From NCBI GenBank assembly GCA_944385475.1, contig CALWXJ010000021.1:22542-86541 (forward strand): 64,000 nt of DNA, given 5' to 3'. Position numbers and translations under genes: made by a program. Of this stretch, positions 19,754-57,469 are shown piece by piece. Position 1 is the stretch's first letter, and each line of letters opens with the position of its first letter. Under the pieces are notes generated by a model. That model did no database searches, had not been told where the DNA came from, and saw only the letters and a list, made by a program, of their open reading frames with translations. This DNA comes from an uncultured Oscillospiraceae bacterium. GTDB taxonomy: Bacteria; Bacillota; Clostridia; Oscillospirales; Oscillospiraceae.

Positions 19754-19883
19754 GGCAGTTCCCTCCCGCAGAAGTATTTGCCTTTTTGCGGCAATTATGT
19801 AAAGAAGGGGCTTCCCTTCCCGGGGAAAATCGGATATAATGGCACAAATCGCAGCAGAGAAAGGAGGACCGGGGGAGAGCCCA

Positions 19884-20050
19884 TTGAAAAGCGCCATGTG
19901 CCCGCTTTTGCGGGACGACGAGGAGAGGGGAGCGTCGGGGCTGGCAAAGGCCCCGCAATCGAATATTCGGCGGATGCCCTTCCGTAAGCGTGGGTGCGGA
20001 CACAGCGGACAAATATGCAGGTGACTGCAAAACAAAGGCGCTGTGACCAC
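19884..20050 (+). ncRNA. glmS ribozyme riboswitch
   Basis: The leader shows the conserved glmS ribozyme: an AAAA-GCGCC cleavage site at 19890/19891, a GACGACGAGG segment, ATTCGGCGGATGCCC (about 19964) and a GACTGCAAAACAAAGGCGCTGTGACC end whose GGCGCT pairs back. Glucosamine-6-phosphate triggers self-cleavage, which destabilises the glmS transcript. A -10 TATAAT lies at 19835-19840, while its -35 box (TTCCCT) is weak. A further GACAAAT/ATTTGTC hairpin lies between the ribozyme and the ribosome site. Confidence 0.96.
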
Positions 20051-20111
20051 GAAAAAGCGACAAATGGCTGCGGATTTGTCCTTTTGAGTAAATATCAGGA
20101 GGATCGTTAAT

Positions 20112-37256: not shown

Positions 37257-37516
37257 TGATAATGACTTTGATGGGAAAAAAGACGGGGCGTCCCGCCTCC
37301 AGAGAGCCGGCGGAAGCTGCGAGCCGGTGGGGGAGCACCGTGTATCCTGGTCCCGGAGTTGCCCGCCTGAACCAACAGTAAGGCGGGCCGGAAGGCGCCG
37401 TTATTTGCCGGGCCCTACGGGGCGATGAGGGCCGCTTGGGCAACTGGCGGCTGAATCAGGGTGGTATCGCGTTTCGACGCCCCTGACCGCGTAATGCGCG
37501 GCCAGGGGCGTTTTTT
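37257..37516 (+). ncRNA. T-box leader controlling leuS
   Basis: A T-box core AATCAGGGTGGTATCGCG (37454-37471) is followed by a terminator stem (37478-37510) and a T run. Upstream are GATGGGAAAA, AGAGAG and a GCCGGC-type stem of Stem I. The predicted specifier CUG at 37347-37349 codes for leucine and is at the same offset from the GGAGYUGC element as UUC in the pheS leader. UGGU in the T-box can pair with the ACCA end of tRNA-Leu. Confidence 0.93.
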
Positions 37517-54331: not shown

Positions 54332-54360
54332 TTGACATTTTTCTGATGCTTCGGTAGAAT
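54332..54360 (+). promoter_or_regulatory. lar operon promoter
   Basis: TTGACA and TAGAAT are 17 bases apart; the transcript is expected to start near 54367. Confidence 0.85.
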
Positions 54361-54366
54361 ACGCTC

Positions 54367-54540
54367 AGGCCTGCAAAGCAGAGCCTTGGTGCAAAGCGCC
54401 CCGTGCCCCAAGGGTGCGGTATCCGCCGGAGAGGGACTTTTCGGCGGAAAAGCCATCATGAAATATAGGACTGAAATGGTATGCTAAGAAGGCATACGGA
54501 CCTTCCCGCAGGGAGGGCCGTAGGTCTTTTTGTTTTTTGT
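54367..54540 (+). ncRNA. Structured leader of the lar operon, class unknown
   Basis: By eye the RNA folds into a row of stems. AGGC-CTGC/GCAG-GCCT has an AAA loop (54367-54386). GGUGC/GCGCC has an AAA loop (54388-54400). An 8-bp CCGUGCCC/GGGUGCGG stem has a CAA loop (54401-54419). CCGCCG/CGGCGG encloses 13 bases (54423-54447), and GUAUGC/GCAUAC encloses UAAGAAG (54479-54497). A terminator stem (54496-54521) follows, with a T-rich tail from 54527. Larger features of known riboswitches are absent. No promoter lies between the terminator and larE, so read-through must feed the operon. Confidence 0.6.
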
Positions 54541-54568
54541 TAAGCTATACACAGCGGAGAGGAGTCAA

Positions 54569-55321
54569 ATGGATCTCATATCGTTTTTTAAAGAGTGCCC
54601 CCAGGTGGCACTCGCCTTTTCCGGGGGAGTGGATTCGGCGTATCTCATGTATGCGGCCAAGTGCTGGAGTCAGCGGGTGAAGGCCTATTATGTCCACTCT
54701 GCCTTCCAGCCGGCTTTTGAGCTGGAAGATGCCCGCCGCCTTTCGGAGCAGCTGGAGGTGGAGATGGAGGTGCTGGAGGCGGATGTGCTCTCCTGTCCGG
54801 AGGTGGTGGCCAATCCGCCGGAGCGGTGCTATTATTGCAAGCGCCTTATTTTCTCCGCTATCAGCCAGGCAGCGGCCCGGGACGGATTTTCCGTCCTGAT
54901 AGACGGGACCAACGCCTCGGATGATGCCGCGGACCGTCCTGGCATGCGGGCGCTGCGGGAGCTTTCTGTACGCTCACCACTGCGGGAGTGCGGACTGACC
55001 AAGGGGGAGATCCGGCGCCTTTCCCGGGAGGCAGGACTTTTCACTCATGATAAGCCCTCCTATGCCTGCCTGGCCACCCGAATCCCCACCGGCACTGCCA
55101 TCACGCCCCAGGCTCTGCAGCGCACAGAGGCGGCAGAGGCCTATCTTGCAGGGCTGGGACTGCGGAATTTCCGGGTGCGGGATCTGCATGGATTTGCCCG
55201 GATCCAGGTGCCGCAAAGCGGATTGGAGGAAGTCCTGCGCCGCAAAGAGGAGATTACGGCCCGCCTCAAGGGCCTTTATCAAGGGGTTTTACTGGATTTG
55301 GAGGTACGAGATGAACAATGA
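54569..55321 (+). CDS. larE: Sulfur transferase LarE for the nickel-pincer cofactor
   Basis: The 250-residue PP-loop protein has SGGVDS at residues 18-23. It also has CxxC at Cys87 and Cys90 and a third Cys167 in SYACLATR. LarE converts the carboxylates made by LarB into thiocarboxylates. Some LarE proteins lose sulfur from a single cysteine; others carry three cysteines that hold a [4Fe-4S] cluster. The CxxC plus C pattern suggests the cluster type, by inference. GAGGAG precedes the ATG. It overlaps larB by 11 bases. Confidence 0.93.
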   Translation: MDLISFFKECPQVALAFSGGVDSAYLMYAAKCWSQRVKAYYVHSAFQPAFELEDARRLSEQLEVEMEVLEADVLSCPEVVANPPERCYYCKRLIFSAISQAAARDGFSVLIDGTNASDDAADRPGMRALRELSVRSPLRECGLTKGEIRRLSREAGLFTHDKPSYACLATRIPTGTAITPQALQRTEAAEAYLAGLGLRNFRVRDLHGFARIQVPQSGLEEVLRRKEEITARLKGLYQGVLLDLEVRDEQ

Positions 55322-56066
55322 GATCAAGCGCATTTTGGAAGAGGTCCAGCAGGGGCAGTTGTCTGTGGAGGAGGCCCTGCTAAAGATCAAGATGGAGCCC
55401 TTTGCCGACATCGGGTATGCTAAGGTGGACCTTCACCGCAAGCTTCGCCAGGGGACGGCGGAGGTTATTTACGGGGCCGGTAAGACGCCAGAACAGATGA
55501 TCGGCATCGTCTCTGCCATGAAGCAGGGAGGACAAAATACCATCCTCATCACCCGGATCAGCCCGGAGGCGGCTCGGGAAGTGGAGGCGGTGCACCCTCT
55601 GCGCTATAATGCCGCTGCCCGGGTGGCGGTGATCGGCCAGCCCCCCAAGCCGGATGGCATCGGACACATTGTGGTGGCCACCGGCGGCACCAGTGACATC
55701 CCGGTGGCGGAAGAGGCTGCGGAGACTGCAGAGATCTTCGGCAACGAGGTAGTGCGTCTCTACGACGTGGGCGTGGCGGGACTGCACCGGCTGCTGTCCC
55801 ATATGGATACCATTATGGAGGCCAGTGTCATTATTGCTATCGCCGGCATGGAGGGGGCCTTGGCCAGTGTCATCGGAGGTCTTGCGGACTGCCCCGTTAT
55901 CGCAGTGCCCACCAGCGTGGGATACGGCACGGCGTTCCACGGACTGTCAGCGCTGCTGTCTATGCTCAACTCCTGCGCCAGCGGCGTGTCGGTGGTAAAC
56001 ATCGACAATGGCTTTGGCGCCGGGTTCCTGGCCAGCCGGATCAATCACATGGACGTAAAAAAGTAA
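55311..56066 (+). CDS. larB: Pyridinium-3,5-biscarboxylic acid mononucleotide synthase
   Basis: The 251-residue product has an N-terminal helical segment and a PurE-like carboxylase domain from about 115, with VVATGGTSDIPVAEEA and VPTSVGYGTAFHGL. LarB adds CO2 to nicotinic acid adenine dinucleotide and splits it to the biscarboxylic mononucleotide. GGAGGT lies before the ATG at 55311, inside the end of larE. The short overlap suggests coupled translation. Confidence 0.95.
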   Translation: MNNEIKRILEEVQQGQLSVEEALLKIKMEPFADIGYAKVDLHRKLRQGTAEVIYGAGKTPEQMIGIVSAMKQGGQNTILITRISPEAAREVEAVHPLRYNAAARVAVIGQPPKPDGIGHIVVATGGTSDIPVAEEAAETAEIFGNEVVRLYDVGVAGLHRLLSHMDTIMEASVIIAIAGMEGALASVIGGLADCPVIAVPTSVGYGTAFHGLSALLSMLNSCASGVSVVNIDNGFGAGFLASRINHMDVKK

Positions 56067-56147
56067 ACTGCCTTTCCAAAGGTGCCAGAGGGCCCACGGG
56101 AAAGCTGAGAAATGATAAATTTTAATTATATAAAGGAGAAGAGAGCT

Positions 56148-57023
56148 ATGAAAACCCTGTACTTAGATTGCGGAATGGGCGCTGCCGGAGATATGCTCAC
56201 CGGGGCGCTGCTGGAGCTGATCCCGGATCCCGACGCCTTTTTGGAAAAGATGAATGCCCTGGGGATTCCCGGCGTGGAGATGAAGAAGGAGCCCTCTGCC
56301 AAATGCGGGATCCTGGGCACTCATGTACGGGTCCTGGTCAACGGAGAGGAAGAGCACAGCCATGATCACCATCATCACCACCACGACCACGAGCATGAGC
56401 ATGACCACGACCATGAGCACGACCACGAGCATGAGCATGAGCATGAGCACGAGCATGAGCACGAGCATGACCATGACCATGAACACGGCCACCACCATCA
56501 CCACAGCGGCATGCACGACATTGAGCACATCGTCAACGACCATCTGGCAAACGTGCCGCAGAAGGTCAAAGAGGATGTGCTGGCGGTCTTCGGCCTCATC
56601 GCTGAGGCGGAAAGCCATGCCCATGGCATGCCGGTCACGGAGATTCACTTCCATGAAGTGGGCACCATGGACGCCATTGCGGATATCACCGCTGTATGCA
56701 TGCTGATGAACGAAATCCACCCTGACGAGGTGGTGGTTTCTCCCGTCCATGTGGGCAGCGGACAGGTACACTGCGCCCATGGCATCCTGCCGGTTCCCGC
56801 TCCTGCCACGGCATTTGTTCTCAAGGGCGTGCCTATTTACGGCGGCGATGTGGAAGGCGAGCTGTGCACACCCACCGGCGCGGCTTTGATCAAGCACTTT
56901 GCCACCCGCTTTGGAAAGATGCCCCTCATGCGGGTGGAGTCCATCGGTTACGGCATGGGTGAAAAGGACTTCAAGGCGGCCAATTGCGTCCGGGCCATGC
57001 TGGGTGAGAGCGAGGAAGGCTGA
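56148..57023 (+). CDS. larC1: Nickel insertion protein LarC, N-terminal part (LarC1)
   Basis: The 291-residue product begins MKTLYLDCGMGAAGDM, typical of LarC. Residues 70-119 form a stretch of about 30 histidines alternating with Asp and Glu. After it the fold continues with PVTEIHFHEVG and ELCTPTGAALI. LarC places nickel into the pincer nucleotide using CTP. The ATG at 56148 has AAAGGAG upstream. The reading frame ends in TGATG, overlapping the ATG of larC2. The His-rich stretch may bind or store nickel. Confidence 0.93.
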   Translation: MKTLYLDCGMGAAGDMLTGALLELIPDPDAFLEKMNALGIPGVEMKKEPSAKCGILGTHVRVLVNGEEEHSHDHHHHHHDHEHEHDHDHEHDHEHEHEHEHEHEHEHDHDHEHGHHHHHSGMHDIEHIVNDHLANVPQKVKEDVLAVFGLIAEAESHAHGMPVTEIHFHEVGTMDAIADITAVCMLMNEIHPDEVVVSPVHVGSGQVHCAHGILPVPAPATAFVLKGVPIYGGDVEGELCTPTGAALIKHFATRFGKMPLMRVESIGYGMGEKDFKAANCVRAMLGESEEG

Positions 57024-57469
57024 TGAGCACGGATGAGGTGTGCGGCCTCAGCTGCAATGTGGACGACATGACGGCCGAGGAGATGGGCTTTGCCATGGAG
57101 CAGCTGCTCCATGGCGGCGCTCTGGAGGTATATACCACCCCCATCGGCATGAAAAAGTGTCGCCCGGGGACGATGCTCACGGTCCTGTGCCGGGAGGCGG
57201 ACCGGGAGGAGATGGTGAGGCTGCTGTTTCTCCATACCACCACCATCGGCGTGCGGGAGTCCTGCTACCGCCGCTATGTGTTGGACCGGGAGGCGGATAC
57301 CCGTTCCACGCCTTGGGGGCCGGTGCGGCGCAAGACCTCCCGGGGATATGGGGTGTGCCGGTGGAAATATGAGTTTGACGACCTCTCCCGCCTGGCAAAG
57401 GAGCAGGGTGTGAGCCTGCGGGAAGCAGCCCGGATGGTAGAGGAAGCGGGCAGCGATTCAGAAAACTAA
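57023..57469 (+). CDS. larC2: Nickel insertion protein LarC, C-terminal part (LarC2)
   Basis: The 148-residue product covers the C-terminal LarC domain, with VCGLSCNVDDMTAEEMG and VYTTPIGMKKCRPGTML. The last 25 residues are helical. The sequence is in the -1 frame relative to larC1 and has its own ATG overlapping the larC1 stop. In Lactobacillus plantarum, LarC is made as one protein by programmed frameshifting. A frameshift here would have to occur within 13 bases, or the parts could work separately. Confidence 0.92.
   Translation: MSTDEVCGLSCNVDDMTAEEMGFAMEQLLHGGALEVYTTPIGMKKCRPGTMLTVLCREADREEMVRLLFLHTTTIGVRESCYRRYVLDREADTRSTPWGPVRRKTSRGYGVCRWKYEFDDLSRLAKEQGVSLREAARMVEEAGSDSEN

Follow-up and report, generated by a model that had tools for sequence, protein, structure and literature searches.

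A conserved tandem-hairpin leader, probably a transcription attenuator, lies ahead of genes for nickel-cofactor synthesis and metal uptake across related gut bacteria

The lar operon of an uncultured Oscillospiraceae bacterium is preceded by an RNA leader that probably acts as a transcription attenuator of a conserved class absent from Rfam, in which termination would be the default and would be relieved by a factor responding to a metal or cofactor signal. In related bacteria of the gut, genes for nickel-cofactor synthesis and for metal uptake were found to be preceded by a leader of the same design. The leader lies in a 64,000-nucleotide stretch of DNA (hereafter, the window); its parts and the lar genes are on the forward strand. 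The original prediction of a structured leader of unknown class on this operon was borne out: the leader is conserved, its stems covary and it includes a terminator switch.

A consensus scan placed a sigma-70-type promoter at 54332-54360 (TTGACA and TAGAAT separated by 17 nucleotides, 11 of 12 positions), in agreement with the good promoter initially proposed. The minimum free energy (MFE) fold of 54361-54545 began with three hairpins, whose loops are AAA, AAA and CAA, and continued with a stem of 12 bp, a second, weak stem and a terminator; these are the three hairpins, two further stems and terminator that had been foreseen; its energy was -82 kcal/mol (z = -4.27), and none of 200 dinucleotide shuffles was equally stable. 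The first two hairpins, H1 (54368-54385) and H2 (54388-54400), both with an AAA loop, agree in position with the H1 and H2 of relatives, in which the H1 loop is mostly AGGAA, AGAA or UGAA rather than AAA. An extra hairpin with a CAA loop, H2b (54401-54419), and a 12-bp linker hairpin, Hx (54422-54448), follow in the fold; a hairpin between H2 and H3 was also seen by eye in some leaders of the same genus (e.g. L233, L236, L238 and L240). H3, the putative antiterminator (54479-54497; arms GUAUGCU and GGCAUAC around an AAGAA loop), folds with -7.0 kcal/mol, and the intrinsic terminator (54486-54538; stem 54486-54531, U-rich tail from 54527) with -26.5 kcal/mol. For 54479-54531, which covers H3 and the terminator stem, z was -4.41.

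The operon begins with larE (54569-55321; TIGR00268 LarE, 244.8 bits, cut-off 150), followed by larB (55311-56066; NF033503 LarB, 289.2 bits, cut-off 175), the start codon of which was inferred by reading the translation. larC (56112-57469) consists of two overlapping ORFs, 56112-57023 and 57023-57469, matching positions 1-238 and 241-373 of the PF01969 Ni_insertion profile, a split that presumably reflects the programmed frameshift of larC. The first of these ORFs contains a long His/Asp/Glu-rich stretch, and a thiamine diphosphokinase gene (TIGR01378, 57557-58255) lies 3′ of larC on the same strand.

Sequence and folding indicate that the weak H3, with its ANGAA, AGAA or UGAA loop, and the strong intrinsic terminator are mutually exclusive. 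In the window the two have 12 nucleotides in common (54486-54497), namely the H3 loop and the entire H3 3′ arm, from which the 5′ arm of the terminator is built, as is typical of the family. The last two stems had been thought to share 2 bases and thereby possibly to switch; the switch stands, but the overlap is much larger. When MFE folds were computed for a growing transcript with ends at 3-nucleotide steps, H3 formed with seven pairs in transcripts reaching as far as 54518 and with five pairs at 54521-54524, and from 54527 onward it was displaced by the terminator. Since H3 folds first and is then displaced by a stronger structure, it would behave as an antiterminator that loses unless held. 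This geometry alone is no proof, since an alternative hairpin of at least 6 bp was found at 11 of the 87 terminator-like sites in the window and is thus not rare; as judged from sequence, the specific evidence for an H3 switch is its match to relatives.

LarE searches matched 97 of 200 genomes of the family and 27 of 86 of the genus; in a genome contig collection, the best 80 of 192 stretches were taken. The DNA upstream of larE was read by eye at 30 family loci, 32 contig loci (two of them starting within the gene) and 22 of the 27 genus loci, while 40 more family loci and the rest of the contig loci were screened by script only. Reading by eye identified the same layout in 33 larE leaders besides that of the window, all checked for distinctness: two short hairpins, a linker of variable length, and an H3 with a similar loop inside a terminator. 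The H1 and H2 loops of these relatives include AGAA, UGAA, AGGAA, AAGAA, ACGAA, AUGAA and ACAA, and in almost every case a C-G pair closes the loop. In several leaders one hairpin departs from the pattern (L041, L045, L046, L053, L070, L071 and L232), and the layout is partial in L239. A strict descriptor applied by script, which demands two hairpins of this type together with H3 and a T-run, accepted 18 of 169 unique larE upstream regions, compared with none of 8450 shuffles; the 18 positive loci all fell among the 103 with a LarE at least 52% identical to that of the window, and the other 151 regions had no leader by this descriptor.

The comparison of lar leaders from relatives, which had been suggested as a check for covariation, showed covarying stems and conserved loops. 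In the H3 alignment (19 relatives) 93.2% of the cells were paired, with changes on both sides in six of seven pairs. The corresponding values were 97.5% and eight of ten pairs in an H1-H2 alignment of 12 relatives with tetraloops, and 94.2% and five of ten pairs in one of 12 relatives with pentaloops. The covariation scores of the H3 and H1-H2 sets were reached by none of 500 shuffles and fell when the structure was slid along the alignment, although the fragments had been trimmed by hand to the hairpins, which favours structure, and the rows are related by descent. Stem lengths, spacers and linker vary widely among relatives; only the loops are nearly constant, the GAA being invariant in the H3 set. 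At the DNA level, a search of 60 relatives with the leader gave only short matches outside its own genome (best E value 0.0013).

With Rfam at gathering score, three matches were obtained in the whole window and none at the leader, where a search with E values up to 10 gave only four sub-threshold hits. Elsewhere in the window, a T-box leader (37259-37487, 100.5 bits) and a glmS ribozyme/riboswitch (19879-20055, 49.2 bits) reached the gathering score. Among the relatives, 14 larE loci had no Rfam 15 match at gathering score, and a search of seven further loci that allowed E values up to 1 found only two hits below threshold, one for a viral-type IRES model and one for a miRNA model. The absence of a family match at the leader agrees with the earlier statement that it resembles no known riboswitch class. 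Its proposal as a candidate new regulatory RNA thus survived both refutation tests set beforehand, namely a match in Rfam and a lack of covariation.

The leader had been described as one of the lar operon, but this specificity was not borne out, since transporter genes of several types (nickel-type and Fec-type ABC, CbiM and ECF) are preceded by it as well. Such loci were sought with models of H1-H2 (R1 and R2) and of H3 (R3, built without the window); the matches were only partly read by eye, so that the leader counts are lower bounds. For R1, 15 of the 30 loci read were accepted, and several others, including L196, L203, L204, L208 and L211, were rejected because they resemble coding sequence. 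A further 18 R1 and R2 loci yielded 11 leaders (L245, L247, L248, L252, L257, L280, L281, L282, L284, L286 and L292) and seven rejections, while only one of the six R3 loci read was accepted (L312), loose matches being often false. At the level of the class, R1 at an E value of 0.003 matched four of 391 genomes, three of them with leaders before ECF genes and one in coding sequence.

The leader was found before solute-binding proteins of nickel/peptide-type ABC systems (L198, L201, L247, L362, L363 and L365), a Fec-type ABC operon that includes a methyltransferase gene (L360 and L361), FecCD (L195), CbiM (L284, as well as L346 with an H3-like hairpin only), a larB operon (L312) and a methyltransferase (L345). 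By eye, the operon of L360 and L361 also encodes an FmdE-like protein; it lies some 4-5 kb upstream of larE. The commonest served gene outside lar encodes an ECF S-component, the substrate of which is uncharacterised, at 15 loci (L189, L197, L199, L202, L205, L210, L252, L280, L281, L282, L286, L292, L357, L358 and L359). Gene assignments were confirmed by family tests on examples (SBP_bac_5 for L198, FecCD for L195, CbiM for L284, ECF_trnsprt for L202 and L205) and otherwise made by eye.

Antitermination is not the sole use of the hairpins, since tandem hairpins without a terminator were seen in some ECF leaders (L205, L280, L282, L286, L292 and L357). In L358 a hairpin resembling H3 is present but no T-run follows it, and L252 is unusual in that its terminator is overlapped by the second hairpin. 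At L280, L282, L286 and L292 (around position 1501), tandem AGAA hairpins abut a conserved CTTTTTGAGAAGGAG ribosome-binding region and there is no terminator; these leaders are perhaps a translational form of the switch. The idea that the ribosome-binding site of such terminator-less leaders is masked by a hairpin was considered and discarded, as that hairpin is unstable (-0.2 kcal/mol for the CTTTTTGAGAAGGAG stretch alone).

The best-supported sequence of events is termination by default and read-through that depends on a factor. In the absence of the signal the terminator would win and transcription would stop before larE; in its presence a trans-acting factor would recognise the loops of H1, H2 and H3 and hold H3, allowing the polymerase to read through. 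A factor reading the loops is proposed because the three hairpins share the letters of their loops and not those of their stems. The signal would report nickel, cobalt or the nickel-pincer cofactor, given that the genes behind the leader are mostly concerned with the import or use of these metals. A link between the leader and nickel is plausible from the genes served, of which we infer nickel to be the common thread; cobalt or another metal is also possible.

A protein-free riboswitch, in which the hairpin array itself would bind Ni2+, Co2+ or the pincer nucleotide and so shift the balance between H3 and the terminator, would likewise fit the metal-related genes served, and purine-rich loops could bind metal ions. 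We nevertheless consider it unlikely, since no conserved core or junction exists beyond three short, separate hairpins of which the loops alone are constant, and Rfam, which covers the known metal riboswitches, gave no match. The initial suggestion that the leader could sense nickel, NaAD or the pincer cofactor was not upheld in the sense of an aptamer: what is conserved, a short hairpin loop present three times, suggests a site for a trans-acting factor instead of the core of an aptamer.

A candidate for the factor postulated in the attenuation model is DUF3842, the gene for which lies just before the leader, or divergent from it, in many relatives (e.g. L070, L071, L075, L081, L248, L252 and L359; identity tested with PF12953 on L075). 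It occurs in 57 of the 200 family genomes: in 22 of 24 genomes with the leader compared with 35 of the 176 others (Fisher P = 6e-12, kinship ignored). The 24 genomes are an incomplete list made by hand from larE loci and R1 or R3 matches, with the window genome included, as well as two weak cases (L193, where the contig ends, and L207, where the served gene is ambiguous); G209 and G183, found later at DUF3842 loci, were excluded from the test. The association did not extend to LarE, which was used for comparison together with ANTAR (DUF3842 in 24 of 97 genomes with LarE and 33 of 103 without; P = 0.28), and all eight leader genomes lacking LarE contain DUF3842. In two genomes, G177 and G231, the leader is present and no DUF3842 match was found. 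The window genome keeps the gene away from larE (L347, 3614-3991; G000 C43:47113-47490), after an oligopeptide/nickel-type ABC ATPase (PF08352), and neither R1 nor R2 matched at that locus.

DUF3842 may belong to the same pathway without being its regulator. It has no sequence relative in the PDB, and no paper on it was found in the literature collection consulted. An AlphaFold model built from eight sequences, with a mean pLDDT of 81 and values below 50 in two segments, resembled generic Rossmann domains, the best being UbiX-like and saccharopine dehydrogenase (TM about 0.5); the model neither supports nor excludes RNA binding. We tentatively suggest, as one possibility among others and a rather unlikely one as it stands, that this small, Rossmann-like protein is the sensor, which would bind a nucleotide of the nickel or nickel-pincer pathway or a metal signal, grip the ANGAA-type loops and block termination. 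If so, DUF3842 would represent a new type of antiterminator that binds RNA, and it would have its own regulon of metal-import and nickel-cofactor genes in Clostridia.

The leader could instead be an ANTAR target, bound by an antiterminator with that domain, the loops of which are unusual. In the part of the literature on ANTAR targets consulted (PMC3369931), these too consist of small hairpins in tandem, with A-rich loops that are conserved, and the final hairpin overlaps a terminator. The loops here, however, are not hexaloops with A at position 1 and G at 4: those of H1, H2 and H2b in the window have 3 nucleotides and that of H3 is AAGAA, and in relatives most have 4 or 5. An ANTAR domain was present in 19 of the 24 leader genomes, a weak association given its presence in 104 of the 176 others (P = 0.07), and was not found in G165, G182, G203, G256 or the window genome (G000), the last of these absences being uncertain as that genome is 86% complete. 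Membership was rejected on the loops, a decision to which the pattern of occurrence lends weak support, and we regard this reading as very unlikely.

R3 ranked the window H3 first of two matches in the 64 kb (E = 0.00026; the next, 0.61) and best in the window's own genome (E = 0.007), in which the other three matches (E = 0.08-0.45) were not leader-like. The pentaloop set was chosen with the window H3 already known, so that R3 is a held-out test of letters and not of design. R1 and R2 gave no match to H1-H2, for which reason H3 was modelled separately, and the strict descriptor rejects the window because it disallows AAA loops; at the expected place lie two hairpins closed by C-G, with AAA loops. 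The leader precedes larE (TIGR00268), one of the gene contexts of the family. In G021, whose LarE (69%) was the most similar to be found in a relative, larE lies in a nickel-type ABC operon, and the H3 of its nickel-type ABC leader (GGTATGCCAGAAGGCATACGG) differs from that of the window (GGTATGCTAAGAAGGCATACGG) solely at the 5′ side of the loop. From these sequence comparisons we call the window leader a divergent member, with H3 and terminator intact and the H1 and H2 loops shortened to AAA.

That shortening, which leaves H1 and H2 unscored by R1 and R2, and the finding of a single element in its own genome would also fit a decayed relic, in which H1 and H2 have lost their loops and a constitutive terminator is left. 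The promoter is strong, however, as is the terminator, H3 is intact with a conserved loop, larEBC is intact and the genome retains DUF3842, which makes decay improbable, to about the same degree as an ANTAR target or slightly more so. Classical attenuation, in which a translated leader peptide would set the choice between H3 and terminator, was rejected as extremely improbable: a small ORF in the window (ending ...MKYRTEMVC) does stop within H3, but ORFs of at least six codons stopping there occur in only eight of 33 leaders and their peptides are unrelated.

A literature search covering mainly titles and the openings of abstracts found no description of this leader, nor of RNA control of nickel-pincer cofactor synthesis. 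Among known systems, the NiCo (czcD) riboswitch is likewise tied to nickel and cobalt genes; it is a four-way junction aptamer, whereas the leader had no match in Rfam 15, searched whole. The BglG/LicT RAT element resembles it in that a weak antiterminator hairpin overlaps the terminator, the RAT being stabilised by protein. It is, however, a single hairpin whose two asymmetric internal loops are recognised by a CAT domain, and inspection of the leaders showed a repetition of short hairpins that are perfectly paired and end in small loops. The GGA-like letters that many AGGAA loops contain are reminiscent of the hairpin-loop sites of CsrA/RsmA, but many loops here are AGAA, UGAA or AAA and contain no GGA. 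The closest likeness is to the ANTAR dual-hairpin antiterminators, as far as the consulted part of PMC3369931 describes them: those of the eut, nas and ami leaders comprise two hairpins with hexaloops bearing A at position 1 and G at 4, in tandem, with conserved terminal loops that are recognised, variable stems, and a last hairpin that excludes the intrinsic terminator. The present leader differs in its 3-5-nucleotide loops, in having a hairpin pair near the 5′ end and a distant third as antiterminator, and in its lack of a tight link to ANTAR genes. In our reading, the leader thus follows a known principle, antitermination through the recognition of loops, but its RNA layout and the set of genes served are new, and the factor may be new as well. 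If this is right, it adds an unclassified RNA family, the gene set it serves and one testable candidate protein of uncharacterised function, and three questions, concerning the factor, the signal and what the uncharacterised ECF transporter carries, would become tractable together.
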